Part shown: piece by piece, positions 15,902-29,911 of the stretch
How the letters are laid out: each line of letters begins with the position of its first letter
Numbering within the stretch: the stretch's first letter is position 1
Assembly (NCBI GenBank): GCA_035998445.1
Contig: DASYHQ010000041.1
Span: forward strand, 62,001-126,000
Direction of reading: 5' to 3'
Length of the DNA: 64,000 nucleotides
Origin: Tepidisphaeraceae bacterium
GTDB lineage: Bacteria > Planctomycetota > Phycisphaerae > Tepidisphaerales > Tepidisphaeraceae
Translations under genes and position numbers: made by a program
Notes under the pieces: generated by a model
Seen by the model: only the letters and a program-made list of their open reading frames with translations
The model's database searches: none
Told to the model about the DNA's origin: nothing

Positions 15902-16300
15902 TCATCGCTGCGCGACGTAAGCACGCCAGCCGCCCAAGTGGGTGATCTCCGTCGCGCCCCGCATCGCCCGCGGTTCACAGACGAAGCCTTTCACCGTCGT
16001 GCCGTCCTCCAGTTCCGCGGTCCCGATCGCCAGCGGCGCGGGCACCTCGGCGACGAACGCGCCGAAGGCCTCGGTCGACAGCGACCACACCTCCACCTCG
16101 ATCGCGGCGCCGTCTTCGCCAGTGGTGCCCACGTGGACCAACCCAGGTTTGGGCGGTGTGGTGTTGGCCAGCGCGTACAGCTTGTAACGCGGCGCGGTGC
16201 GCGTTGCGCGCACGAGCCGTCCACCGCGACTGGTGAGCTGATGGTTTAACGGCATGCCGCTGAGGTGCGCGCCAACGACGGCCAACTGGATCTCGTTCAT
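15902..16300 (-). CDS. Allophanate hydrolase C-terminal-domain protein (separate gene)
   Basis: A 132-residue protein that corresponds to the C-terminal domain of AtzF-type allophanate hydrolases ([42 protein letters not shown]). In two-domain enzymes this domain decarboxylates the N-carboxycarbamate made by the amidase domain. Here it is its own gene. Its ATG lies 18 bases after the amidase gene's TGA and in the same reading frame, with an AAAGG ribosome-binding site 6-8 bases upstream. It therefore looks like a split of a once-continuous gene that now restarts translation. No catalytic residues can be assigned by eye. Confidence 0.9.
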
Positions 16301-16318
16301 CAGTGCCTTTCGTAATGT

Positions 16319-17689
16319 TCACGTTGCGCCGGCGAGCGTGCGATATCGCAGCGCCAGCGTACAGAGTGGTTCCTCGTGCCACGCCGGCGCGACGAACGTG
16401 ATGCCGAACGGCAACCCGTTCGGCCGGAACCCCGCGGGCACGGCCAGCGCGCTCAGGTCGAGCAGGTTCACGAAGTTCGTGTAGTAGCCGAGGTTCGCGT
16501 TCAGCGAGATCGGGTCGGCCAGCAGTTCGTCCACGCGGTAGATCGTGCCGGTGGTGGGCAGCGCGAGGATGTCGACCTCGTCCCACACCGGCTCCGTCTG
16601 CCGGCGCAGCGCCGCCAGCTGATAGGTGGCTTCGAACGCGTCGGCAGCGGAGAACTTGCTAGCGCCCTCGATGATCGTGCGCACGACCCTGTGCGTAGCA
16701 TCGGGATGTTCACTGATGAACTTGCCCACCGCGGCGTAACGCTCGGCGACGAATGCGCCGCCGTAGAGCAGGCGGGCGGTGGCGTCGAAGGGCTCGTAGT
16801 CGATCGTCACGCGTTGTCCGCCGATGCGCTGCAACTGTTCGAGCGAGGCGACGTACAGGTCGCGCGCCGCGGTGTCGCCGAAGAACTTCAGCTGGTCCTC
16901 CCGCGGCACACCGAACCGGAACGTCTCACCGTACGCGGCCAGTGATGCCGGTGCCGCCGGTGCCGCGCGCGAGAACGCGTCTTCCGCATCGAAGCCCTGC
17001 GCCACCGCGAGCACGGCCGCGGCATCGGGCACGCGGCCGGCGAAGATCGAGACGCAGTCGAGCGACCGGCACGCCGGCACTACACCGCGGGTGCTGAGCC
17101 GACCCTTCGTGGGCTTCAGGCCGATCAGACTGTTGAACGCCGCCGGCACGCGACCGGAGCCGGCGGTGTCGGTGCCGAGGGCGAAGCTCACGAGCCCGCC
17201 CGCCACCGCGACGGCCGAGCCACTACTGGAACCACCGGAGACGTAGTCGCTGTTGAACACGCACCGCGGCGCGCCGTGAGGCGAGCGCGTGCCGACCAGG
17301 CCGGTCGCGAACTGGTCGAGGTTCGTCTTGCCGACGAAGATCGCGCCCGCGTCCAACAGCCGACGCACCACCGTCGCGTCTTCCGTCGGCGTGTACGCGA
17401 ACGCCGGGCAGGCGGCCGTCGTGGGCATGCCCGCGACGTCGATGTTGTCCTTCACAGCGAACGGGATGCCATAGAGCGCGCGAGCCGGCGAGGGGCCGAG
17501 GCGCTCGAGTTCATCCGCCCGCGTAGCCAGCGCGTCATCGGTCGCGCGGCTGATCCAGACGTGCTCGTGCCGCGACGACGCAAGGCGCGATAGCACCGCC
17601 GCCACAACGTCGCGCGGCCGCACATCACCGCGCGTCAGCTGCTCGCGAAGCGTCGTGATCGAGTCGAGAGATAGAACGTCGTTCTGCAT
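16319..17689 (-). CDS. atzF: Allophanate hydrolase, amidase domain
   Basis: Hydrolyses allophanate to ammonium and carbon dioxide. At 456 residues it is the amidase-signature part only. Catalytic Lys is in FAVKDNIDVAGMPTT, the cis-Ser/Ser pair is in GGSSSGSAVAVAGG, and TDTAGSGRVPAAF is typical of allophanate hydrolases. Family members usually carry a further 150 residues; those are encoded by the next gene in the same frame after a TGA (16319-16321). It is the last step of the carboxylase route encoded just upstream. Transcription from the same leftward unit is likely, across a family B repeat in the 185-base gap. Confidence 0.94.
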   Translation of the reverse strand: MQNDVLSLDSITTLREQLTRGDVRPRDVVAAVLSRLASSRHEHVWISRATDDALATRADELERLGPSPARALYGIPFAVKDNIDVAGMPTTAACPAFAYTPTEDATVVRRLLDAGAIFVGKTNLDQFATGLVGTRSPHGAPRCVFNSDYVSGGSSSGSAVAVAGGLVSFALGTDTAGSGRVPAAFNSLIGLKPTKGRLSTRGVVPACRSLDCVSIFAGRVPDAAAVLAVAQGFDAEDAFSRAAPAAPASLAAYGETFRFGVPREDQLKFFGDTAARDLYVASLEQLQRIGGQRVTIDYEPFDATARLLYGGAFVAERYAAVGKFISEHPDATHRVVRTIIEGASKFSAADAFEATYQLAALRRQTEPVWDEVDILALPTTGTIYRVDELLADPISLNANLGYYTNFVNLLDLSALAVPAGFRPNGLPFGITFVAPAWHEEPLCTLALRYRTLAGAT

Positions 17690-17874: not shown

Positions 17875-20800
17875 TTACTTCCCCTTCACCACGCACAGCG
17901 TCGTCCCCGGCATCACCATCTGTCCCGGCTTGCACGTGACGCGCAACACCACCCCGTCGCATGGCGAGACGACGGTCGTCTCCATCTTCATGGCTTCCAA
18001 GATCACTAACGTGTCGCCCGCCTTCACCTGCTGGCCTTCGCTGGCGACCACCTTCCACACGTTCGCAACCATGGGCGACTCGGCCGCCTCGGCGCCGGCC
18101 GGAATGTCGATCGCTTCGGCGACCGGGGCGGCGGTGGTGGAGGCCTCTGCCGACGCAGCGGCCTTGAACTCGCCGGCGGCTTCCCATCGCTGCCGCTCGG
18201 CGCCGAAAGCCGCCTGCTGCGTGGCACGGAAACCGGCGATGCTGTCGGCGTTGGCCTTGGTGAACGCGTGGTAATCGCGCAGGCGGAAGGTCGTTTCTTC
18301 CACCTTCAACTTGAACCGGCCCAGCACGAAGTCATCGCGAATCCTCAGCAGTTCATCTGCGGTCACCGGGTAAAACTTCACTTGGTCGAAGAATCTCAGC
18401 AGCCACGGTTTGCCACCGGTGAAGTCGGCGGTCTGCCGCCAGCGGTTGAACTGCTGCACGGTTCGACCGACGAACTGGTAGCCACCGGGGCCTTCCATGC
18501 CGTAGATGCAGAGGTACGCGCCACCGATGCCCACGCTGTTCTCGGCCGTCCACGTGCGGGCGGGGTTGTACTTCGTCGTCACCAACCGGTGCCGCGGGTC
18601 GACCGGTGTGGCCACCGGCGCCCCGAGGTAGACGTCGCCGAGCGCCAGTACGAGATAGCTGGCGTCGAAGACGATCTTGTAGACGTCGTCGATGCTGCTC
18701 AGGCCGTTTACCCGGCGGATGAACTCGAGGTTGCTGGGGCACCAAGGCGCATCCGGCCGAACCGACTGCATGTACTTCTCGATCGCCAGCCGTGTCGCGG
18801 GGTCGTCCCACGACAGCGGCAGATGCACGATGCGCGACGGCACCGCCATGTCCTCGATCGACGGCAGTTGTTCTTCGGCGGCCATCAGCGTGTCGAGCAG
18901 CGTTCGTTGCGGCAGCACGCGGCTGTCGAAGTGAACCTGCAGCGAGCGAATGCCGGGGACAAGGTCGATCACGCCGGCCTGCGGGTGGTCGGCGAACCAC
19001 TGCATGAGCGCGTGGACGCGGAAGCGCAAATCGAAGTCGAGCACCATCGGGCCGTACTCGACGAGGACGTTCTGATCGCCGTTGCGACGGTAGGTGACCA
19101 TGGGGCGGTCGGCGACGGGGTGCGCGGTGTGGAGGAGCGGACTTTGCGGCGGCTGCGTGGCATGGGTTTCTAACCCATGAGCTTGTGCCGAAGACACGGG
19201 TTGGAAACCCGTGCCACGTTGTGAAATCGCTGCGTCCTGCGCGCGTTCCATCTCGTTCGCCTGCGTGTCGCGCAGCGAGACGAACTTCACGCGATCGCCT
19301 GGCCGCAGTTGGCCCATCTTCCAGAGTTCCGCCTGCACGATGGTTACGGGGCAGACAAACCCACCGCAGCTTGGACCATCGGGGCCCAGGATGATCGGCA
19401 TGTCGCCGGTGAAGTCGACGGCGCCGATCGAATAGGCGGTGTCGTGGATGTTGGACGGGTGCAGGCCGGCGTCGCCACCGTCCGGCCGGGCCCACTGCGG
19501 CTTGGGGCCGATCAGGCGCACGCCGGTGCGGGCGCTGTTGTAGTGCACCTGCCAGGCCGTGGCGTAGAGCATCTCGATGTCGGCGGGCAGGAAGAAGTCG
19601 GGCGCGGCGTGCGGGCCGTCGAGAACGCCGATCTGCCAGTCGTTGGTCAGTGGCGGGATGAGGTCGGCGGCCAGGCCCTCATACAGCGGAGCGTCAAGTG
19701 TCGCTTCGTCCGGTTCCGCCAGGTGCAGCACGTCACCGGTGCGCAGCGTGCGCCCACCATGGCCACCGAAGAGGCCGAGCGTGAAGGTCGATCTGCTGCC
19801 GAGGTAGTCGGGCACGTCGATGCCGCCGCGCACGAGCAGATAGGTGCGGCAACCGGCGCCTTGGATCGCGCCTAACTTCAGCGTTGCGCCCGCGGGCACG
19901 TCGAACGCGCACCAGTAGGGCACGGATTGGCCATCCATCGTCGCGGTCATCGGCGCGCCGGCCAGGCAGATGGTCGACTTGCGGTTGAACTTCAGCGTAG
20001 GGCCGGTAATCGTCAGTTCCAGCCCGGCGACGCCCTCGGTGTTGCCGACTATGCGGTTGCCCAGGCGGAACGACAGGTGGTCCATCGGCCCGTTCGGTGG
20101 GATGCCAACGTCCCAGTAGCCCAGCCGGCCGGGGTAGTCCTGCACGGTGGAGAAATTGCCGGCCGCCAGCACGTCGATGCTGGGGTCGTAGTAGTTGAAG
20201 CCGGCCAGCGTCTTCGTGATCACCTTGCCGGCACGGAAGACGTCGGACGCGATGAAGTCGCGCAGGTAGAAGAGGTTCGTCTCGATCCCTTCCAGCCGCG
20301 TGCGCGACAGCGCTGCCGACATCTTCTCGATCGCGGTGTCGCGCGTGTCGGCGTGTACGATCAGCTTCGCCACCAGCGGGTCGTAGTGCGGCGAGACCTC
20401 GCTGCCCGTCTGAACCCAGGTGTCCACGCGCGCATCGGTTGGAAACGTGACTTCGGTTAGCAGGCCAGCAGACGGCTGAAAATTCTTGGCCGGGTCCTCG
20501 GCGTACAGGCGCACCTCGATCGAGTGGCCACGGCTCGTCGACTGAAGCGAGTGAAGCGGCGGCAGGTCGCCTGCGGCCAGGCGCACCATCCATCCGACGA
20601 GGTCGACGTTATGCACCGCCTCGGTCACGGGGTGTTCAACCTGAAGGCGCGTGTTCACCTCCAGGAAGTAGAACTGCTGCGTGATCGCGTCCAGCACGAA
20701 TTCCACCGTGCCCGCAGATCGGTAAGCGACCGCCTTGGCCAGTCGAACGGCGGTCTCCTGAAGCTCACGGCGCGTGCTCTCACTGAGGTGCGGGGCGGGC

Positions 20801-21522
20801 GTCTCCTCGATCACCTTCTGGTTGCGGCGCTGGGCGGAGCAATCGCGCTCGCCGAGCGCGATCACGTCGCCTCGGCCGTCGCCGAAGATCTGCACTTCGA
20901 CATGGCGGGCTTGGGCGATGAACTTTTCCAGGTACATGCCCGCCTGGCCGAAGTGCGACTCGCTTAACCTGCGCACGCTTTCAAACGCCTGGCCGAGCTG
21001 GGCGGCGTCGCTACAGACGCGCATGCCGATGCCGCCACCACCGGCGGTGCTTTTCAGGATCACCGGATAGCCGATTCGCTCCGCGGCGGCCGCGGCGGTG
21101 TCGACGTCGCTTAGCAGATCGGTACCCGGCAACAGCGAGACGTTGTTGGACTTGGCCAATTCGCGGGCCGTGTGCTTCAGGCCAAAGGCGCGCATGTTGT
21201 CGCCCGTGGGCCCGATGAACACGATGCCGGCTGCGGCGCAGGCGTCGGCAAAGCCGGCGTTCTCGCTCAGTAGGCCGTAGCCGGGGTGAATCGCTTCTGC
21301 CCCCGTATCTAGCGCGGCCTGGATGATGCGCTCGGCCTTCAGGTAGCTCTGATCGACCGCCGCGGGACCGATCAGCACGGCCTCGTCGGCTAGATCAACA
21401 TGCTGCGACGCGTGATCCGCCTCGGAGTAGACGGCCACCGACTTCACGCCCAGCCGCTTCAGCGTGCGGATGATCCGGCAGGCGATTTCCCCGCGATTGG
21501 CGATGAGGACTTTCTTGAACAT
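17875..21522 (-). CDS. Biotin-dependent urea/guanidine carboxylase
   Basis: A 1215-residue single-chain carboxylase. Residues 1-450 are biotin carboxylase ([21 protein letters not shown]-grasp loop [11 protein letters not shown]). About 465-765 is the AHS2/KipA-like half of the carboxyltransferase ([20 protein letters not shown]). About 800-1020 is the AHS1/KipI-like half. The C-terminus is the biotin carrier domain ([13 protein letters not shown]; Lys in MKM is biotinylated). This architecture is shared by urea carboxylase and guanidine carboxylase. The flanking DUF1989 pair favours guanidine. Codons 769-789, between the two carboxyltransferase halves, are an in-frame 63-base palindromic repeat. 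The start is the ATG at 21520-21522; the upstream extension is repeat sequence. Confidence 0.93.
19156..19218. repeat. In-frame palindromic element inside the carboxylase gene
   Basis: CGTGGCATGGGTTTCTAACC ... CGGGTTGGAAACCCGTGCCA + CG. It is 63 bases (21 codons), with inverted ends and palindromic arms. On the coding strand it reads [20 protein letters not shown], a sequence out of character with the surrounding enzyme. It lies in the linker between the AHS2 and AHS1 halves. Confidence 0.85.
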
Positions 21523-21548: not shown

Positions 21549-21671
21549 CCGGTCCCTCTCCCATGTACGCATCGGAGAGGCTAGGTGAGAGTGATTTGTG
21601 CTTTGGAGAGCCGTCAGCACTTCGAAATCACCCTCACCTAGCCTCTCCCGGAGTACCGGGAGAGGGACCGG
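21549..21671. repeat. Family A palindromic element, copy A5 (overlaps a gene end)
   Basis: TCCGGTCCCTCTCCCATGTA ... GGAGTACCGGGAGAGGGACC; core contains GTCAGCACTTCGAAAT. Its upstream-facing arm contains the last codons and stop of the neighbouring DUF1989 gene. Confidence 0.88.
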
Positions 21672-22317
21672 AGAACGCTTCTCCATCTCCCGCAATCACC
21701 ACCCGCACCGCCGTCGGGTTGAACGCGTTGCACGGGTTGTTGATCTGCGGGCAGTTGCTGATGACCACCAGTACGTCCTTGGCCGCCACTAGGTCGACGT
21801 ACTTGCCGGGCGCGCTGATGCCGTCGACGATGCCGAGGCTGCCGTCGGGCTCGACGGGCACGTTCATGAACCAGTTGATATTGCTGGTCATGTCGCGCTT
21901 GCCCAGGTCGTGCCACGCCGCGGCGTTCAGGAAGTTGTCGACGCAGGCGTGCTGGTGTTTCGTGTGGTGGCCGTAGCGCAGCGTGTTCGATTCCGGCGAG
22001 CAGGCGCCGCCGATCGTGTCGTGGTACTGGACGTTCGTGCCGGCGATCGTCATCAGCAGGTCGCCGTCGTTGCTGAGCAGTTGCGTGCCGGTGACGAGGA
22101 AAATATTGCGTTGGGTCGCCATGGTGTCCGGGGCGCTGTAGCGCTCGTCGTGATCGGCGGCGTTATAGATCAGGCAATCGACGGCTTGGTTGCCCTCGAC
22201 ATCGATGAGGCGCAGTGTCTGGCCCGCCTTCACCACGTGCGCCCACGGTGCGCGGGCGGGGATGATCTGGTCGTAGACGATGGTGCCATTAAGCGGCTGC
22301 GATTCGATTGCGATCAT
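21634..22317 (-). CDS. DUF1989 protein, probable carboxyguanidine deiminase subunit (UAAP2-like)
   Basis: A 227-residue protein of the family long annotated as urea amidolyase-associated or aminomethyltransferase-like. Paired DUF1989 proteins next to such carboxylases are known as carboxyguanidine deiminase, which converts carboxyguanidine to allophanate and ammonium. Visible family blocks: AGQTLRLIDVEGNQAVDCLI, NIFLVTGTQLLSNDGDLLMT, HDTIGGACSPE and GKRDMTSNINWFMNVPVEPD. The last twelve residues (SGPSPGTPGEAR) and the stop lie inside a family A repeat, so the repeat has replaced the native 3' end. It is followed 112 bases later by the carboxylase gene on the same strand. Confidence 0.9.
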   Translation of the reverse strand: MIAIESQPLNGTIVYDQIIPARAPWAHVVKAGQTLRLIDVEGNQAVDCLIYNAADHDERYSAPDTMATQRNIFLVTGTQLLSNDGDLLMTIAGTNVQYHDTIGGACSPESNTLRYGHHTKHQHACVDNFLNAAAWHDLGKRDMTSNINWFMNVPVEPDGSLGIVDGISAPGKYVDLVAAKDVLVVISNCPQINNPCNAFNPTAVRVVIAGDGEAFSGPSPGTPGEAR

Positions 22318-22451: not shown

Positions 22452-23282
22452 TCACATCAGGAAATAGTCGTCCACGTTCAGGAACGCCCGCTGCGCTTCG
22501 GGGGAAGCGTTGCGGATCGGGTCATCGGCGCCCGCCGGTTCACTACGGTAGGCAGTGATGCGCAGCGGCGTGCAGGTGTATTGCGGGCGCGGGTCGAGCA
22601 CATGGGGGGTGTTGGCGAACACCACCAGCACGTTCATGTCGGCCCGCAGTTCGACGACGTCGCCGGGCTTGGATGACTTTTCGTTGAACGTCATCGCGCC
22701 GGATTTCTCGATGCGCACGTTCTTGAAGAAGTTCACGTTCGGCATCACGTCGCGCTTGCCCAGTCCGTGCTTGGCCAGCGCGATCAGGAACCGCTCGCGG
22801 GCGTTGGGGTGGGGCGTGTAGTTAGCGCCGGTGCCGTACTTGGCGGCGTTCGTCTTGGGGTTGCTGGCACCGCAGAACGTGTCGTGTTGGCCGCAGGTGT
22901 CATGCAGGATGCTCATCAGCGAACGGCCCATGTCGCTCAGCAGCAGCTTGCCTTGGCCCAGGTAGCCGTTCCACTGCACCTTGATCGTGTCGGCGACATT
23001 CAGACGCTCGAGCGGGCGGTCGGCGTTGTAGATTAGGAAGTTGCAGCAGGCATCGCCGCCGACGTTCGTCAACCGCAGCCGCGATCCGCGTTTCAGCACG
23101 CGCGATGCGTAACCCCCGCCGGCGATCGTCTCTTCCCACAGCACGTCCTGCGGCCGCAAGCCGGGCGGCAGGTCTGTCGCGTTCGACGCGGGCAAGATCG
23201 GCATGTCGTCGGTGACGGTGCCCGCCTGCGCCCGGGCATGCTCGCGGGCCTTCAGCGGTGTTGCGGTGGACGATTCGGGCAC
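22452..23282 (-). CDS. DUF1989 protein, probable carboxyguanidine deiminase subunit (UAAP1-like)
   Basis: A 276-residue DUF1989 member, longer at the N-terminus than its partner. Family blocks: EETIAGGGYASRVLKRGSRL, NVGGDACCNFLIYNADRP, LSDMGRSLMSILHDTCGQHD, and GKRDVMPNVNFFKNVRIEKS. Cysteines and histidines in the DTCGQHDTFCG block are candidates for a metal or catalytic site. Together with the 21634-22317 protein it makes the two-subunit arrangement known for carboxyguanidine deiminase. Which one is the A and which the B subunit cannot be decided by eye. The start at MPESSTATPL is provisional; the first 40 residues are low complexity. Expected to be in one transcript with the regulator gene 37 bases upstream. 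Confidence 0.9.
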   Translation of the reverse strand: MPESSTATPLKAREHARAQAGTVTDDMPILPASNATDLPPGLRPQDVLWEETIAGGGYASRVLKRGSRLRLTNVGGDACCNFLIYNADRPLERLNVADTIKVQWNGYLGQGKLLLSDMGRSLMSILHDTCGQHDTFCGASNPKTNAAKYGTGANYTPHPNARERFLIALAKHGLGKRDVMPNVNFFKNVRIEKSGAMTFNEKSSKPGDVVELRADMNVLVVFANTPHVLDPRPQYTCTPLRITAYRSEPAGADDPIRNASPEAQRAFLNVDDYFLM

Positions 23283-23319: not shown

Positions 23320-23763
23320 CTACTCGTGCAACGGCGGCACGAGCGTGCGCGTCATCGACATGCGCACCTGCTCGACGCCCTTCAATGCCCGCGTCTCGTC
23401 GGCCAGGCGGCTGAGGCGGTGGCCGGGGCCTTGCACCAGCAGGACTTCCAGGCTGTGTTCCCGTTCGAGGAAGACGTGCTGGGAGCTGATGATCTCTTTG
23501 ATGTATCGCCGTTGGATTTGCGCCATGCGCTGGCGCAGGGTGCCGCGGCGCTGGGCGTTGTAGACGAGCGTCATCGTACCGGCGACGACGCGTTCGGGGT
23601 CGGCCGCCAGTTCATCCTCCACCAGCGCGCCGCGGATCAGCTCGGCCAATATCTGCGACCGGCTAGGCAACCGCCGGCGCGTGACGAGCGAATCGAGCTG
23701 TTCCAGCAGCTCGCCGGGCAGCGAGATGCTGAAGCGGGAGATGGGGGCAGAGGTTGCGGACAC
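23320..23763 (-). CDS. NikR-like ribbon-helix-helix regulator lacking most nickel ligands
   Basis: An N-terminal ribbon-helix-helix domain (ISRFSISLPGELLEQLDSLV ... RSQILAELIRGAL) is followed by an ACT-like NikR C-terminal domain (GTMTLVYNAQR, VFLEREHSLEVLLVQGPGHR). Aligned by eye with E. coli NikR, ligand His76 becomes Arg, His87 is kept, His89 becomes Phe and Cys95 becomes Ser. Nickel sensing as in NikR is therefore unlikely; a different ligand is inferred. The frame is open to a TTG at 23820, but a TTGACC-N17-TACATT promoter covers that region. The start is more likely the GTG at 23763 (147 residues). A GTGTTA-N16-TAACAC site overlaps this promoter. It is the first gene before the DUF1989 and carboxylase genes. 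Confidence 0.87.
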   Translation of the reverse strand: MSATSAPISRFSISLPGELLEQLDSLVTRRRLPSRSQILAELIRGALVEDELAADPERVVAGTMTLVYNAQRRGTLRQRMAQIQRRYIKEIISSQHVFLEREHSLEVLLVQGPGHRLSRLADETRALKGVEQVRMSMTRTLVPPLHE

Positions 23764-23783: not shown

Positions 23784-23811
23784 GTGTTAACAATGTAGGA
23801 TTCGGTAACAC
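23784..23811. promoter_or_regulatory. NikR-type operator candidate, site 1
   Basis: GTGTTA (23784-23789)-N16-TAACAC (23806-23811). The half-sites are exact reverse complements. The 6-16-6 layout is that of the E. coli NikR operator GTATGA-N16-TCATAC. The site overlaps both the spacer and the -10 of the regulator's own promoter, which fits autorepression. Confidence 0.65.
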
Positions 23812-23820
23812 TGGGGTCAA
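23792..23820 (-). promoter_or_regulatory. Sigma70-like promoter of the NikR-like gene
   Basis: On the reverse strand TTGACC (23820-23815), a 17-base spacer and TACATT (23797-23792). It would place the transcript start near 23785 and so excludes the upstream TTG as the start codon. Confidence 0.65.
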
Positions 23821-23836
23821 GGAGATTTTCTGTCGT

Positions 23837-23920
23837 CATTCGTAGGGGCAGGCCTCCGTGCCTGCCCTCTTCCTTTCCCAGGACGACGAGGGCAGGCACG
23901 GAGGCCTGCCCCTACGAATG
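23837..23920. repeat. Perfect 33-bp inverted repeat after the glutamine synthetase gene
   Basis: CATTCGTAGGGGCAGGCCTC ... GAGGCCTGCCCCTACGAATG with an 18-base core. The arms begin four bases downstream of the glutamine synthetase stop. It would form a very stable hairpin and probably ends or limits transcription before the NikR-like gene. Confidence 0.8.
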
Positions 23921-23924
23921 ATTC

Positions 23925-25328
23925 TCAAACGTACGTCAGCATCTCCTCCCGCTCGTCATCGCTTACGCGGTAGAACCCCCGCGACCATTCCTTGTGTTTT
24001 TGCTCGGCGTAGATCTGTTGGAACGATTCGCCGAACGTCTCGGTGACGAGCGGGTCTTCCTCGAACGCGCGAACGGCGTCCAGCAGCGTCGCGGGCAACC
24101 GCTTCACGCGACGCTTGTCGGCGGCGGTCTTGGATAGCGTGTAGAGGTTGTCGTTCAGCGGCTCGCCAGGGTCCAGATTCTCGCGAATGCCTTCCAAGCC
24201 CGCGGCGAGGCTCAGCGCGGCGGCGAGGTAGGGGTTGACGCTCATGTCGACGGCGCGGTTCTCCACGCATGGCCGGCTCATCGGCAGGCGCAGCATCGCG
24301 CTGCGGTTGTTCTTGCCGTAGCAGCGCAGCACGGGGGCCCAGCTCATTTCGGGCAAATCGCCTTGGGCGATCAGTCCCTTGTAGCTGTTGTACGTGGGGC
24401 AGCAGACGGCCGTCAGCGCCGGGGCGTGCTTAAGCAGGCCGGCGACGAAGGCCAGTGCCACACGCGAGCAATTCAGTCCGTATTTCTCGGCTAGCGGGTC
24501 GGCCTTGTCGCCCGCTGAGAACACGTTGTTGCTGGTCGCCACGTCGGCCAGGCTCATGTTGAAGTGCGCGCCGCTGCGGTAGTCGTTGGCGAAGGGTTTG
24601 GGCATGAACGTCGCGATCGCGCCAACCGAGGCGGCCACCTCCTTGGCCATCAGGCGCAGGAAGATCAACCGGTCGGACATCGTCATCGCGTCGGCATAAT
24701 GGAAGTCGAACTCGAACTGCCCACGGCCACATTCTTGGTCGAAGCTGTGGACGCCCCAGCCGAGTTGTTCAATGTAGCGGCACATGGGGTCGAGAAACGG
24801 CATGCTCATCAGTGTCTGCCGTACGTCGTAGCACGCGTTCGGCTGTTTGAAGAGCACCGGCGCCAACGGCACGTACTTGCCCTGCTCGTCCTTCCGCAGC
24901 ACGTAAAACTCGGGCTCGATGCCGAGATTGAGCGTGTAGCCCATGGCCCTGGCCTGCTTCAGCACGTTGCCGAGGATGACGCGCGCCGCGCCGCCGTAGG
25001 GCTTGCCGTGGTGAACGAGGTCGGCGCTGAACCAGGCGTAGCGGGTGTCCCACGGGCAGATCGTGCAGGTGTCGAGGTCCGGAACCGTCTGGCATTCGTC
25101 TTCCTGCGGGCCGACGAGGCCCATGCCTTCACTGGCGCCCACGGTGTACAACTCGCCGCCCTCGCACATCTCTTCGAACCTGGCCAGCGGGACGACCTTG
25201 GCTTTCGGAATGCCGTGGACGTCGACGTAGGCGGCGAAGCAGTATTGCACGCCCTTGGCATGCAGGTCGCGTTTCATCTGGGCGACGCGGGAAGGTTCGG
25301 TGTGGGTCATCAGCTCGTCACGGTCCAT
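23925..25328 (-). CDS. Glutamine synthetase family protein (GlnT-like)
   Basis: A 467-residue member of the glutamine synthetase superfamily. The catalytic domain shows GIEPEFYVL, FDQECGRGQFEFDF (metal-binding Glu residues), FMPKPFANDYRSGAHFNMSL (the Met-Pro-Lys-Pro block before the conserved His), and NNRSAMLRLP with ENRAVDMSVNPYLAAALSLA (glutamate and ATP contacts). It is closer to GlnT/type III-like or gamma-glutamylamide synthetases than to GlnA; the adenylylation Tyr region is not evident. In this cluster it would trap the ammonium released by deimination and allophanate hydrolysis, or glutamylate a related amine. The start MDRDELMTH at 25328 has an AGGA ribosome-binding site. It is separated from the downstream regulator gene by a large hairpin. 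Confidence 0.88.
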   Translation of the reverse strand: MDRDELMTHTEPSRVAQMKRDLHAKGVQYCFAAYVDVHGIPKAKVVPLARFEEMCEGGELYTVGASEGMGLVGPQEDECQTVPDLDTCTICPWDTRYAWFSADLVHHGKPYGGAARVILGNVLKQARAMGYTLNLGIEPEFYVLRKDEQGKYVPLAPVLFKQPNACYDVRQTLMSMPFLDPMCRYIEQLGWGVHSFDQECGRGQFEFDFHYADAMTMSDRLIFLRLMAKEVAASVGAIATFMPKPFANDYRSGAHFNMSLADVATSNNVFSAGDKADPLAEKYGLNCSRVALAFVAGLLKHAPALTAVCCPTYNSYKGLIAQGDLPEMSWAPVLRCYGKNNRSAMLRLPMSRPCVENRAVDMSVNPYLAAALSLAAGLEGIRENLDPGEPLNDNLYTLSKTAADKRRVKRLPATLLDAVRAFEEDPLVTETFGESFQQIYAEQKHKEWSRGFYRVSDDEREEMLTYV

Positions 25329-25392
25329 GGGAACATCCTGTTGCTGAGCGTTTGCAAGTTTCGATCGTCGTCCCAAGCGGGTGGTTTGAGAT

Positions 25393-25517
25393 CCGGTCCC
25401 TCTCCCATGTACTCATGGGAGAGGCTAGGTGAGGGTGACTTCGAACTGCTGACGATCCTCGTAAGAACAGAAGGCACCCTCACCTGGCCTCTCCCGGAAT
25501 ACCGGGAGAGGGACCGG
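25393..25517. repeat. Family A palindromic element, copy A7
   Basis: ATCCGGTCCCTCTCCCATGT ... GGAATACCGGGAGAGGGACC with core ACTTCGAACTGCTGACGATC. Lies between the creatininase and glutamine synthetase genes. Confidence 0.88.
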
Positions 25518-25527
25518 AGCGACCTGG

Positions 25528-26334
25528 TCATCGCGACCACGACAGTGGTGCCGTTTCAGTGCGCGCCGCGTCAACGAGCGCTGCGAGCGCATCGCCCACT
25601 TCGAGGAACAATCGTTTTCCATCCTCGCTCGTCGCGAGGCTCGGTTTGCCGGTCAAGCCGTTCGTACTGGTCTGCGGCACGACGTACGTAAAGATCTTGC
25701 CCGCGGTGCGGTCGGGGTCGTCTTCGATGCGGTCCTGCCGCACGCTGCCGGGCGACAGGAACATCATCAAGGCGGTCTCGGCGCGGTTGGCGTGGAAGTC
25801 GGCGGCGTCGTCGCTGAACTGGTTCCACACCGCCGGCGTGATCTCGAACGTGTTCCGCAGGCCCAAACTGAAGCGCCCGGCGTGCTCGAAGCGGATGCGG
25901 TCAATAGCACAGCGGACGGCGGACGTGTTGCCCCAGTGGCTGTTGACGATCAGCAGCCGTTCGAAGCCCGTGCGGATCAAGAAGTCGGCAATCTCGCGGA
26001 CGGTTAACATCAGCGTTTCGGGCATGAGCGAGAGCGTGCCGGGCCAACGGTCGGTGTGACCCAGCGAGCAGCCGTAGGTGATCGTCGGCAGCACCGGTAC
26101 ACCCGTCTTGGCCGACGCGTACATGCAGAACGCGCCGGCGAACACTGAATCGACGTTCAACGGCAAGTGCGGCCCGTGCTGCTCGGTGGCGCCGATCGGC
26201 AAGATAGCCATCCGCCCTCCGGCGTCGCGGTGCTGTTCCACCTCAGGCCAGCTCATTTCGTCCCACATGATCGCCGGGGCGCCCGCGAGCGATTCGACAA
26301 GCGATCGGATGTCATGGGGTGTTACGCGCTGCAA
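25528..26334 (-). CDS. Creatininase-family amidohydrolase
   Basis: A 268-residue protein of the creatininase/FAPy-deformylase/amide hydrolase superfamily. Metal-ligand motifs: Glu and His in GATEQHGPHLPLNVD, TDRWPGTLSL, NSHWGNTSA and FHANRAETALM. The reaction could be hydrolysis of creatinine or of another guanidino or formamide compound; the family is too diverse to say more. Being in a guanidine/urea cluster, it may release a substrate for the pathway. The annotated start is a TTG at 26334, which lies inside an operator-like site. The in-frame ATG of MWDEMSWPEVEQH, 22 codons later, is a realistic alternative. It is the first gene of the leftward unit. Confidence 0.88.
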   Translation of the reverse strand: MQRVTPHDIRSLVESLAGAPAIMWDEMSWPEVEQHRDAGGRMAILPIGATEQHGPHLPLNVDSVFAGAFCMYASAKTGVPVLPTITYGCSLGHTDRWPGTLSLMPETLMLTVREIADFLIRTGFERLLIVNSHWGNTSAVRCAIDRIRFEHAGRFSLGLRNTFEITPAVWNQFSDDAADFHANRAETALMMFLSPGSVRQDRIEDDPDRTAGKIFTYVVPQTSTNGLTGKPSLATSEDGKRLFLEVGDALAALVDAARTETAPLSWSR

Positions 26335-26346
26335 AGTTCCTCACAC
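26319..26346. promoter_or_regulatory. NikR-type operator candidate, site 2
   Basis: GTGTTA (26319-26324)-N16-TCACAC (26341-26346), at the 5' end of the creatininase gene. Same geometry and nearly the same half-sites as site 1. Confidence 0.6.
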
Positions 26347-26458
26347 TTTCGAGACGAGTCGCCTTCAGCAAGGATCGTGCCGCTGCCGCGCGAGCGGCGT
26401 TGGTGAGGCCGTGGTGCGGGTTGAGCGTTATTGAGGGGCGATGGGGTTCATCCTTAAC

Positions 26459-26478
26459 CGCTGCGCGATCGCGCAGCG
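26459..26478. promoter_or_regulatory. 20-bp perfect palindrome in the divergent region
   Basis: CGCTGCGCGATCGCGCAGCG lies between sites 2 and 3. It could be a second operator or a simple GC-rich cruciform. The 413-base gap 26335-26747 contains this and the two operator-like sites. No guanidine-I (ykkC) riboswitch motifs were seen in it. Confidence 0.4.
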
Positions 26479-26586
26479 GCGCGTTGTCTGCACAACGAAT
26501 GCGCGCAATCGCGGCGCGAGCTGGAGAATGGAGACAAACCCTCAAGCGCGGCTGACGACTTAGAAACGCCGATTTTGACGCTCTCG

Positions 26587-26614
26587 GTGTTACCAACTTG
26601 CTTCGGCATCATAC
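26587..26614. promoter_or_regulatory. NikR-type operator candidate, site 3
   Basis: GTGTTA (26587-26592)-N16-TCATAC (26609-26614), 134 bases upstream of the importer's binding-protein gene. The right half-site is identical to the E. coli NikR half-site. Confidence 0.6.
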
Positions 26615-26747
26615 TTGCTCAGTGGCCGATAGCATGGCTGGCGCGGCCGTGTTGCGTGGGTTGCGGCTGCGCCAGAACGTGCTGCCGGGCCAGTGTTGGC
26701 CACGTGCGTTTTGAGGGTTCTCGCGTCTATTAGGAAGAGGAGCGTTC

Positions 26748-27764
26748 ATGTCCCGTCTGTCCCGCATCGCCGGCAAGATCCGGTCGCTCGCGTTGGCGTT
26801 CTCGTTGGCCGTCCCGCTCGTCGCCGCCGCTCCCGCCGCGGCCGAGCCGTTGAAGATCGGGTACTCGGACTGGCCCGGTTGGGTGGCGTGGGAAGTGGCG
26901 ATCCAGAAGGGCTTCTTCAAAGAGGCCGGCGTGGACGTCGAGTTCACCTGGTTCGAGTACGGCCCGAGCATGGAAGCCTTCGCCGCGGGCAAGATCGACG
27001 CCGTCACGATCACCAATGGTGATGCGCTCGTCACCGGCGCCGGTGGCAAGCCGTCGACCTTGGTGGTGCTGAACGATTACTCGAACGGCAACGACCGCGT
27101 GGTGGGCGGGCCGAACGTGAAATCGATCAAAGACCTGAAGGGGAAAAGCGTCGGCGTCGAATTAAACTTCGTCGGCCATCTGCTGCTGCTCAAGGGGCTG
27201 GAAGCCAACGGTCTGAGCGACACCGACGTGAAGCTCGTGAACTTCCCGACGAACGAGACGCCGCAAGCGCTGGCCTCGGGCGGCGTGGACGCGATCGTGG
27301 CGTGGTACCCGATTTCAGGTCAGGCGCTGCAGCAGGTCGCGGGGTCGACCGAACTGTTCACCAGCCGTGATGCGCCGGGTTTGATCTACGACGGCCTGTA
27401 CGTCAGCCGCGAGAGTTTGGCGTCGAACCGAGATGCGTGGAAGAAGGTGGTGGGGGTGTGGTTCAAGACGGTCGATTTCATCAAGGACCCTGCGACCCGC
27501 GACGAGTCCGTGAAGATCATGGCCGCCCGCGTGAACGTGCCGGCCGAGGAGTACGCCAAGGGACTGGACGGCACCTTCCTGCTCGATCTGGCGGGCAACA
27601 TGGAACGCTTCAAGGAAGGCGACGGTTTGGACAGCATCCACGGGTCGAACAAGACCGTGGACGCGTTCAACACGAAGTACGAGGTGTACAAGGAACCGCA
27701 GGACCTCAAGTCGTACGTCGACGATTCGCTCGTGAAGGAAGTGGCCGCGGAGATGAAGAAATAA
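26748..27764 (+). CDS. ABC importer substrate-binding protein (urea-carboxylase-associated)
   Basis: A 338-residue periplasmic binding protein of the NMT1/SsuA-like type. The signal peptide ends ...APAAAEP. The mature start [20 protein letters not shown] and [18 protein letters not shown] are typical of binding proteins found beside urea/guanidine carboxylases. The ribosome-binding site AGGAAGAGGAG is strong. With the permease and ATPase that follow it makes a complete importer. From the pathway its ligand is probably guanidine or a related small nitrogen compound; the sequence alone does not show this. It is divergent from the catabolic genes with a shared operator region. Confidence 0.92.
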
Positions 27765-27867: not shown

Positions 27868-29028
27868 GTGAGGAATCGGACTCCCTGGTTTGGCATACGC
27901 AAGCCGCTCTCGCCGACGCAGGAACTGCTGCTGAAGGCGGCTGCGTTCCTGTTGCCGCTGGGTGTTTGGTGCCTGGTGAGCTACTGCCCATACGTGTGGC
28001 ACCCGATGGTGCGGGTGGATAATGGCGGTGGGTCGACGTTTCTGCGCGAAGGCACGCTGATCGAGCGGCAAGCCTTCGCCGCAGAAAATGGCCGGTTGGA
28101 AGCCGCCGGTAAGGCGCGGGCGACCGGTAAACCGGCCAACCCGATCTTCCTGCCCGCCCCGCACGAAGTGGCTACCGCGCTCTACACCGCGTTCACCACT
28201 GAACCTGCCCGTCGCGGTGATCCTTGGCTTCACGAGAGCCTGGCACACTCCGTCACGATCATCTTCTGGGGCTTCGCATCGGCGGCCATCATCGGTGTGC
28301 CGATTGGCGTGCTGTGCGGCACGTTCAACTTCTTTGCGCGCATCACCGAACCGTTCGTCGACTTCATCCGCTACATGCCGGCCCCGGCGTTCGGGGCGCT
28401 GGCGGTGGCGGTGATGGGCATCAACGACGCGCCGAAGATCGCGATCATCTTCATCGGCACGTTCTTCCAGATGGTGCTCGTGGTCGCCAACACCACCCGC
28501 CTGCTCGACACCGCTTTACTGGAAGCGGCCCAGACGCTGGGCGCCAAGCCCAGGCGGCTGCTGACGCACGTGATCGTGCCGGGCATTCTGCCGAACCTGT
28601 ACAACGACATGCGCATCCTGCTCGGCTGGGCCTGGACGTACCTGATCGTGGCGGAGCTGATCGGCGCCAGCTCGGGCATCAGCTACTTCATCAACCAGCA
28701 GGGGAAGTACCGCCATTACGACAACGTCTACGCCGGCATCGTGCTGATCGGGCTGATCGGCCTCGCGACCGACCAGATCATGGCGATCCTCTTGCCGCAG
28801 CTGTTCCCGTGGACGCCCGCGGGCGCGCGGGCCAAGCGGTGGGGCGTGGGTCGGTTGTTTGCCCGCACCGTGAATGCGCTCGGCTCGCCATGGGACGAAC
28901 GCCTGCCCTGGCGCCACGCCCGGCAGAAGCGGGGCGTGGGCTTCTCCAACCTGCCCGCCAGCCGAACGGTGCCTGCGGAGATGACCTCGCGCGAGAAAGG
29001 TGCGGAACCCGATGTACGGATCGCTTGA
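27868..29028 (+). CDS. ABC importer permease (urea-carboxylase-associated)
   Basis: A 386-residue inner-membrane permease starting at a GTG. It has a first membrane segment at residues 22-40 and a periplasmic insertion of about 80 residues. A binding-protein-dependent transport domain follows (residues 120-320), with the EAA loop EAAQTLGAKPRRLLTHVIVP. The C-terminal 65 residues are a basic cytoplasmic tail. It overlaps the ATPase gene by 17 bases, which suggests translational coupling. Family: taurine/nitrate/urea-type permeases. Confidence 0.92.
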   Translation: MRNRTPWFGIRKPLSPTQELLLKAAAFLLPLGVWCLVSYCPYVWHPMVRVDNGGGSTFLREGTLIERQAFAAENGRLEAAGKARATGKPANPIFLPAPHEVATALYTAFTTEPARRGDPWLHESLAHSVTIIFWGFASAAIIGVPIGVLCGTFNFFARITEPFVDFIRYMPAPAFGALAVAVMGINDAPKIAIIFIGTFFQMVLVVANTTRLLDTALLEAAQTLGAKPRRLLTHVIVPGILPNLYNDMRILLGWAWTYLIVAELIGASSGISYFINQQGKYRHYDNVYAGIVLIGLIGLATDQIMAILLPQLFPWTPAGARAKRWGVGRLFARTVNALGSPWDERLPWRHARQKRGVGFSNLPASRTVPAEMTSREKGAEPDVRIA

Positions 29029-29911
29029 CCTCCCCAGCTACCTCGACTTGCCGCCGGCCGTCTACGACCGGTTCCAGCGCATTCGCCAGCGGCCGCAGGT
29101 GATGGAGGTGCGCGACCTGTCGCGCGTCTTCCACGGGCGCGGCGGGGCGGTGACGGCGCTGAACAAACTGAACTTCGACGTGCGCCGCCGCGAGTTCATC
29201 TGCGTGATCGGCCAAAGCGGGTGCGGCAAGAGCACGCTGATCCGCATCCTCGCCGGGCTCGATGAACCGACCAGTGGCGAGGTGTTGCTCGATGGCAAAG
29301 CTGTCCATGGTCCCGGGGCCGATCGTGGCATGGTCTTTCAGGGCTACACGCTTTTCCCGTGGCTTACGGTGAAGCGCAACGTGATGTTCGGCATGCTCGC
29401 CAAGGGCGTGCACCAGGCCAAAGCCGAGTCGGACGCCCGCACGTGGCTGAACATGGTGGGTTTGACGCAGTTCGCCGACTCGTATCCGCACCAGCTATCG
29501 GGCGGCATGAAACAGCGGGTCGCGATCGCGCGGGCGCTGGCAAACCAGCCGCGCATTTTGCTGATGGACGAGCCGTTCGGCGCGCTGGACGCGCAGACGC
29601 GCTCGCAAATGCAGCATTACCTCCAGCAGATCTGGAGCGCGGTGGACGTGACGATCCTGTTCATCACGCACGACTTGGACGAGGCGATCTACCTTGCCGA
29701 CCGCATCATCGTGCTGGGCGCACGCCCGGGCCACGTGCGGGAGATCATCAACGTGCCGTTGCCCCGTCCGCGCACGCGCGAGCAGATGCTCGACCCGTAC
29801 TTCCTGGCCACCAAGGCCCGGCTGGAAGAACTGATCCACCCGCCGGGCGAAAAGGACGCGGAAGAAATCGACTTCCCGCGGATGGTGCCGGTGGAGGATA
29901 GCATTCTGTAG
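29012..29911 (+). CDS. ABC importer ATP-binding protein (urea-carboxylase-associated)
   Basis: A 299-residue ATPase of the TauB/SsuB type. Walker A GQSGCGKST, Q-loop FQGYTLFPW, signature LSGGMKQRVAIARAL, Walker B ILLMDEPFGALD and H-loop FITHDLDEA. The first 30 residues (MYGSLDLPSYLDLPPAVYDR) precede the usual domain start. A GTG at 29000 is an alternative start. The gene ends the rightward transcript, and a solo family B palindrome lies 70 bases downstream. Confidence 0.94.
   Translation: MYGSLDLPSYLDLPPAVYDRFQRIRQRPQVMEVRDLSRVFHGRGGAVTALNKLNFDVRRREFICVIGQSGCGKSTLIRILAGLDEPTSGEVLLDGKAVHGPGADRGMVFQGYTLFPWLTVKRNVMFGMLAKGVHQAKAESDARTWLNMVGLTQFADSYPHQLSGGMKQRVAIARALANQPRILLMDEPFGALDAQTRSQMQHYLQQIWSAVDVTILFITHDLDEAIYLADRIIVLGARPGHVREIINVPLPRPRTREQMLDPYFLATKARLEELIHPPGEKDAEEIDFPRMVPVEDSIL

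Follow-up and report, generated by a model that had tools for sequence, protein, structure and literature searches.

Why should a relative of the nickel sensor NikR be encoded at the head of a nitrogen cluster, and what does it control there? The question is raised by a stretch of 64,000 nucleotides from the genome of a Tepidisphaeraceae bacterium (Planctomycetota; contig DASYHQ010000041.1, positions 62,001 to 126,000), here called the window, in which a gene for a NikR-like protein stands next to genes for guanidine import and degradation. A first-pass annotation, made from the letters of the sequence, had proposed that three operator-like sites in this region mark the regulon of a nickel-blind NikR-like protein. 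Our analysis points in the same direction. We consider it likely that a nickel-blind descendant of NikR is a local regulator of guanidine import and degradation, probably a repressor released by guanidine or a product of the pathway, and that it does the work that riboswitches do in related clusters.

Operator sites and regulator in the window

The elements that bear on this reading are, in window coordinates:

23320-23763, minus strand: NikR-like regulator (RHH_1 + NikR_C) with R76, H87, F89 and S95 at the ligand positions
23784-23811, minus strand: operator site 1, exact match, GTGTTACCGAATCCTACATTGTTAACAC on the minus strand, over the promoter of the NikR-like/guanidine operon
23792-23820, minus strand: predicted sigma70-type promoter TTGACC-N17-TACATT, read from the sequence, with its -10 element and most of its spacer inside site 1
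26319-26346, minus strand: operator site 2, exact match, upstream of the creatininase and glutamine-synthetase-like (GS-like) genes
26587-26614, plus strand: operator site 3, exact match, upstream of the ABC (ATP-binding cassette) importer operon
26604-26619, plus strand: tentative sigma54-like -24/-12 element CGGCATCATACTTGCT, overlapping the right half of site 3

All three 28-bp sites fit the pattern GTGTTA-N16-TMAYAC with 0 mismatches, at the positions where the first-pass annotation had placed them. It had also claimed that they stand only where transcription of the nitrogen cluster would begin, and this extends to the whole genome (5,844,885 bases, 64 contigs): exact matches occur at these three positions alone, heading three operons of one cluster. 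With one mismatch allowed, the genome-wide number of matches is not above that of a reversed control pattern. A fourth regulon member at C63:43492 (1 mismatch) was rejected, as the site lies within an open reading frame and its neighbours look unrelated.

Site 1, described earlier as overlapping the promoter of the NikR-like gene, covers the core of the predicted sigma70-type promoter (minus strand; -35 TTGACC at 23820-23815, 17-base spacer, -10 TACATT at 23797-23792). It ends about 20 bases before the GTG start (23763) of the NikR-like gene, which is preceded by an AAAGG ribosome site. The layout of the promoter is similar in locus L085 (TTGACA-N16-TAAAAA), and the position orthologous to site 1 in genome G249 is occupied by the perfect palindrome GTGTTACGTTTCACTAAAAATGTAACAC. 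Site 2 goes with the creatininase gene, but probably does not lie at its 5' end as first thought. The long creatininase reading frame opens at TTG 26334, inside the site; ATG 26265 (MWDEMSWPEV...) is the more plausible start, and site 2 therefore lies about 54 bases upstream of the gene. Site 3 precedes the importer genes, as had been noted, at a distance of 133 bases from the ATG. The genome encodes RpoN.

The NikR-like protein matches PF01402 and PF08753, both above gathering scores, and shares this two-domain architecture and its fold with the NikR proteins of E. coli, P. horikoshii and H. pylori. Its best match among solved structures is 2bj1, P. horikoshii NikR (E = 1e-22), with which it has the DNA-contact strand R-x-S-x-S in common; the top Foldseek matches of its AlphaFold model (mean pLDDT 86.7) are all NikR. 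Against the NikR equivalog models it scores 103.8 bits at best (cut-off 105) and lies clearly below the cut-off for the others. The nickel ligands H76/H87/H89/C95 of E. coli NikR are R/H/F/S in the window protein, a set that does not make up the square-planar nickel site of NikR. The operator, in turn, appears to be of the NikR type, a 27-28 bp inverted repeat with N13/14 between 7-base half-sites, and belongs to the same class as that of nickel-responsive NikR (GTGTTAC-N14-GTAACAC). The window protein differs from the latter in having RHFS for HHHC and in a predicted regulon of guanidine import and degradation, not nickel transport; control of nickel uptake or nickel enzymes is not seen, the exact sites being found solely at the guanidine cluster. 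The genome search found no NikR_C protein besides that of the window, so the three sites are not contested by a nickel-type NikR, and crosstalk with a second NikR was rejected.

Conservation of the operator and loss of the nickel site

Among about 400 sampled genomes of the class, and as many of the phylum, there is one other clear orthologue, in G249 (59% identity). A scan of 84,980 species yielded 21 loci, belonging to Sphingomonadales, Caulobacterales and Verrucomicrobiota; from plasmid records came Asticcacaulis, more Novosphingobium and Sphingobium, and distant (30-32%) relatives in Acinetobacter. At least 24 NikR-like clusters, from Planctomycetota, Verrucomicrobiota, Alphaproteobacteria and Acinetobacter, carry guanidine-degradation genes. 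All genome-scan relatives with a visible neighbourhood adjoin either the genes for the paired DUF1989 proteins UAAP1 and UAAP2 and the carboxylase or an importer; the neighbours usually also include allophanate hydrolase and ABC importer genes. In Novosphingobium (L119, L125, L128, L129, L131) a second copy of the NikR-like gene lies upstream of the importer. Caulobacter vibrioides, a standard laboratory species used as a control genome, has matches for both NikR_C and UAAP1 and may carry the same regulator.

The conservation check that the first-pass annotation had set beforehand was run in the window genome and in relatives, and the dyad is kept before the orthologous genes in other phyla. 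Taking the best dyad within 350 bases upstream and at most 2 mismatches, it precedes 23 of 28 regulator genes and 18 of 19 importer genes, compared with 3 of 112 other cluster genes and 5.8% of random windows. When the spacer is varied over 58 upstream regions, a spacer of 16 gives 48 hits and all others 1-10, except for a spacer of 19 (32 hits), which we read as a by-product of the repetitive TTAC/GTAA half-sites; shuffled sequences give about 3 to 5. Of 10 further genomes, 9 have one or two copies of the strict palindrome RTRTTAC-N14-GTAAYA, always on the contig of the cluster with the sole exception of G748 contig 133. It is true that the motif was derived from the three sites themselves, as a chance origin would have it. 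The genome-wide, cross-phylum and spacer tests reject such an origin, and the match to the known NikR consensus likewise makes it extremely improbable that the dyads are accidental or the sites of an unrelated factor. Erythrobacteraceae loci have an additional dyad after the allophanate hydrolase gene (L117:17429-17456, also L118, L121 and L124); the gene behind this dyad resembles, by eye, a sterol-desaturase-type membrane enzyme.

The operator itself has a history. The signal GTGTTAC-[N13/14]-GTAACAC, identical in consensus, has been proposed for the nickel-sensing NikR of deltaproteobacteria, where, unlike the sites of the window, it heads nickel transporter (nikMQO) and hydrogenase genes (PMC545781). 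Nickel-type (HHHC) NikRs of related Planctomycetota also have the same dyad (L002, L003, L004, L058, L060, L072), and the genes behind it in G008 and G004 resemble, as identified by eye, NikM, NikQ and NikO. A rough survey of nickel-type NikRs, limited to loci whose orientation was read correctly and counting the best dyad at any upstream distance, finds 11 of 29 with at most 2 mismatches. Because these related nickel-type proteins carry the same dyad, the operator of the nickel-blind protein was most likely taken over from nickel sensors, and it is not new. The earlier remark that the system is undescribed therefore has to be narrowed: the operator was already known (PMC545781), but no report linking NikR to guanidine or to a carboxylase cluster was found in the open-access literature, subscription papers being outside the scope of the search. 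The fold and the operator have known counterparts; neither the loss of nickel sensing nor the guanidine regulon is described in the literature searched.

The lost nickel site is a common property of the family. In the main set, each of the 27 readable proteins has serine in place of C95 and keeps H87, with R, T, A, S, V, L, Y or H at position 76 and F, V, L or H at position 89; the two Acinetobacter proteins, aligned by eye, have Q/H/Q/V. In a tree with 31 nickel-type NikRs the nickel-blind proteins form one side of a branch (support 99/98) that adjoins the nickel-type proteins of Planctomycetota. Intermediate states are found in Chthoniobacteraceae (L135 and L136, HHH-S) and Opitutia (L133, YHH-S), the cysteine being seemingly lost first, and the graded series HHHS, YHHS, RHFS, xHFS illustrates how a metal sensor loses its metal. 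Together, the substitution of RHFS for HHHC, the restriction of the sites within the genome and their conservation across phyla speak for the nickel-blind regulon that had been proposed. One might object that the protein is still a metal sensor, a NikR variant holding another metal through H87 and new ligands and coupling guanidine use to metal supply. With three of four ligands lost, position 76 drifting in the main clade, and a carboxylase route that requires biotin and ATP, not nickel (general pathway knowledge), we regard this as improbable, even though H87 does not vary in the main set and HHH is retained by two Verrucomicrobiota proteins. A nickel-dependent guanidinase, which would give such coupling a sense, does exist elsewhere (PMC11410670).

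Guanidine genes and the exchange with riboswitches

The genes headed by the three sites are:

22452-23282, minus strand: UAAP1 (DUF1989), one carboxyguanidine deiminase subunit, TIGR03425 above cut-off
21634-22317, minus strand: UAAP2 (DUF1989), the other carboxyguanidine deiminase subunit, TIGR03424 above cut-off
17875-21522, minus strand: biotin-dependent carboxylase of guanidine type, TIGR02712 above cut-off, with signature residues
16319-17689, minus strand: allophanate hydrolase, amidase part (PF01425)
15902-16300, minus strand: allophanate hydrolase C-terminal part (AH_C), separate small gene (PF21986)
23925-25322, minus strand: GS-like ligase (PF00120; TIGR03105 450 bits, below the cut-off of 469.6)
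25528-26265, minus strand: creatininase-family amidohydrolase (PF02633; below named-equivalog cut-offs)
26748-27764, plus strand: ABC importer substrate-binding protein (SsuA/NMT1 family), 49-67% identical to the binding proteins of the comparison clusters
27868-29028, plus strand: ABC importer permease, 56-71% identical to the permeases of the comparison clusters
29000-29911, plus strand: ABC importer ATPase

Guanidine and urea carboxylases can be told apart by Asp at K. lactis positions 1330 and 1584 (PMC11410670; see also PMC12186494). Aligned with the K. lactis urea carboxylase, the window enzyme has Asp at 1330 (D703, in DFTGD), where K. lactis has Asn, and Asp at 1584, in LALGDVYLG (positions counted from the alignment). 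By this sequence rule it is a guanidine carboxylase, and all readable carboxylases of the NikR-like set share Asp 1330. With this type of Asp the cluster is a guanidine system and not a urea system; of the guanidine/urea carboxylation named in the first-pass annotation, urea is unsupported as a substrate given the signature, and was dropped. UAAP1 and UAAP2 constitute the carboxyguanidine deiminase CgdAB, as PMC11410670 relates from Schneider et al. (2020), and the window encodes the corresponding pair of DUF1989 proteins. The allophanate hydrolase (15902-17689) is interrupted by a stop codon, behind which come a ribosome site and an ATG; its amidase and AH_C parts appear to be separate genes, and relatives mostly have one fused protein. 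With carboxylase, deiminase subunits and allophanate hydrolase, the operon is predicted to encode the entire route from guanidine to ammonia. Database names that would need correction are CopG family protein or nickel-responsive regulator for the proteins and urea carboxylase for the enzymes.

Guanidine-I and guanidine-II riboswitches control the same genes elsewhere, namely guanidine carboxylase, carboxyguanidine deiminase, allophanate hydrolase and ABC importer, from the same operon heads. Rfam models detect no guanidine riboswitch in the window at the gathering score or, with E values of up to 1 admitted, in the cluster, and the same holds for 17 further NikR-like clusters (18 counting the window). 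A hidden guanidine riboswitch in the window was rejected, the microRNA matches listed being chance fits to long hairpins. As a comparison set we used 11 other Planctomycetota clusters with UAAP1-UAAP2, whose importer proteins are 49-71% identical to those of the window. NikR-like genes are absent from the neighbourhood of all 11, and the sole dyad with at most 1 mismatch lies inside a gene; in 8 of them, guanidine-II riboswitches stand before the importer and/or the UAAP1 operon, the very operon heads that carry the dyads here. In contrast to the riboswitch regulons, the leaders of the window contain no aptamer, and control is proposed to rest with a DNA-binding protein. The regulator seems to have taken the place of the riboswitch on homologous operons, a case of a protein-DNA switch and an RNA switch substituting for each other.

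The comparison cluster L173 also bears on site 2. Its GS-like gene (58%) and creatininase gene (53%) share their strand with a guanidine-II element at a distance of about 1.5 kb, in keeping with site 2 as a genuine part of the regulon. In the same cluster (L173:1570-6711) a Rieske-type oxygenase gene is located behind a second, divergent guanidine-II riboswitch. The GS-like, creatininase and Rieske-type oxygenase genes are possible new members of guanidine regulons.

Two Acinetobacter clusters hold both systems. In L179 and L180 the leader of UAAP1 contains a guanidine-I riboswitch with a dyad immediately upstream of it, and each cluster has two further dyads, before the regulator gene and before the importer permease gene. 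All six dyads adjoin sigma54-like promoters: four begin 21-26 bases downstream of the first base of the sigma54 element and cover the expected transcription start, and in two leaders the dyad is just upstream of the promoter. With a distant nickel-blind NikR-like protein, dyads, sigma54-like promoters and a guanidine-I riboswitch (L179:4154-21490 and L180:4833-17192), these clusters are apparently under triple control, as far as can be read from their sequence. L179 also contains an SMR transporter gene and a 2OG-Fe(II) oxygenase gene with a hypothetical protein alongside, resembling a methylguanidine demethylase pair. The idea that the dyad is generally paired with a sigma54 promoter was rejected, since such pairing is limited to Acinetobacter, the L133 importer, L136 (weak) and site 3 of the window.

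Promoters of the sigma54 type are often tied to nitrogen limitation, and the window cluster includes a GS-like ligase and a creatininase. Both these genes and the sigma54-like elements beside site 3 and the six Acinetobacter dyads would suit a repressor that binds the dyads and answers not guanidine, but general nitrogen status or another molecule such as allophanate, a creatinine-type compound or a GS-linked signal. We take this alternative seriously and yet judge it rather unlikely. Guanidine riboswitches occupy the same operon heads in related clusters, the Acinetobacter leader that combines a dyad with a guanidine-I riboswitch points to guanidine as the inducing signal, and none of the other NikR-like loci was found to contain GS or creatininase genes.

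Proposed regulation by guanidine

We propose that the window protein descends from a nickel-sensing NikR and would have kept the DNA-binding half and the operator GTRTTAC-N14-GTAAYAC, but lost the nickel site. It would bind the three dyads that head three operons: the first with its own gene, both carboxyguanidine deiminase subunits, guanidine carboxylase and allophanate hydrolase, the second with the creatininase and the GS-like ligase, and the third with the ABC importer. Sitting on these promoters, its own included, it would act as an autorepressor and let go of the DNA once guanidine or a pathway product enters the reshaped nickel pocket. Autorepression is the most likely mode because in both Planctomycetota genomes the dyad extends over the core promoter of the regulator gene, and because four of the six Acinetobacter dyads cover the expected transcription start. 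An activator would account for the 133 bases between site 3 and its gene and for the two Acinetobacter leaders with the dyad just upstream of the sigma54-like promoter. At the regulator's own gene, on the other hand, the sites of both Planctomycetota genomes overlap the core promoter or abut the start codon, and together with the position of the four Acinetobacter dyads this makes activation quite unlikely.

As a rule, the substrate of such a catabolic pathway induces its genes. As the RNA switches exchanged for the protein answer guanidine, guanidine or a close derivative is our best guess for the ligand that releases the repressor. R76, H87 and S95 could equally suit an anionic intermediate, for example carboxyguanidine or allophanate. 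According to a 2025 review, riboswitches are the sole known guanidine receptors besides transporters and enzymes, and guanidine-binding transcription factors are named as an open possibility (PMC12186494). We see an even chance that the NikR-like proteins are the first transcription factor family to sense guanidine directly, with the nickel pocket rebuilt for guanidinium (or carboxyguanidine or allophanate), spread with the pathway across at least three phyla and exchanged with riboswitches. The family provides a concrete candidate for a guanidine-responsive protein and is present in culturable Novosphingobium, Sphingobium and Asticcacaulis.

Several points weigh against regulation by guanidine as proposed here. 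DNA binding, repression and ligand are what we infer from the computed patterns, that is, from the sites, their restriction to the cluster, their conservation, the loss of nickel ligands, the single clade, the carboxylase signature and the exchange with riboswitches. The clusters are kin, and the dyad and riboswitch counts describe a pattern, not independent events; three of the 11 comparison clusters have neither riboswitch nor dyad (one contig begins at UAAP1). Several of the second NikR-like copies in Novosphingobium are without a clear dyad of their own. The HHH-S proteins, with three of four ligands kept, might still weakly bind metal. Finally, the substitutes at position 76 vary across the family (R/T/A/S/V/L/Y/H/Q), and with such variation in the residues that replace the ligands no obvious guanidinium pocket is legible from the sequence.

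Two minor features of the window complete the description. Long near-perfect hairpins lie between the operons at 23836-23921 (37-nt arms, 97%) and 25392-25518 (26-nt arms, 92%); they are probably repeat elements and could serve as terminators. Outside the cluster, positions 578-753 match the c-di-AMP (ydaO/yuaA) riboswitch with 57.3 bits.

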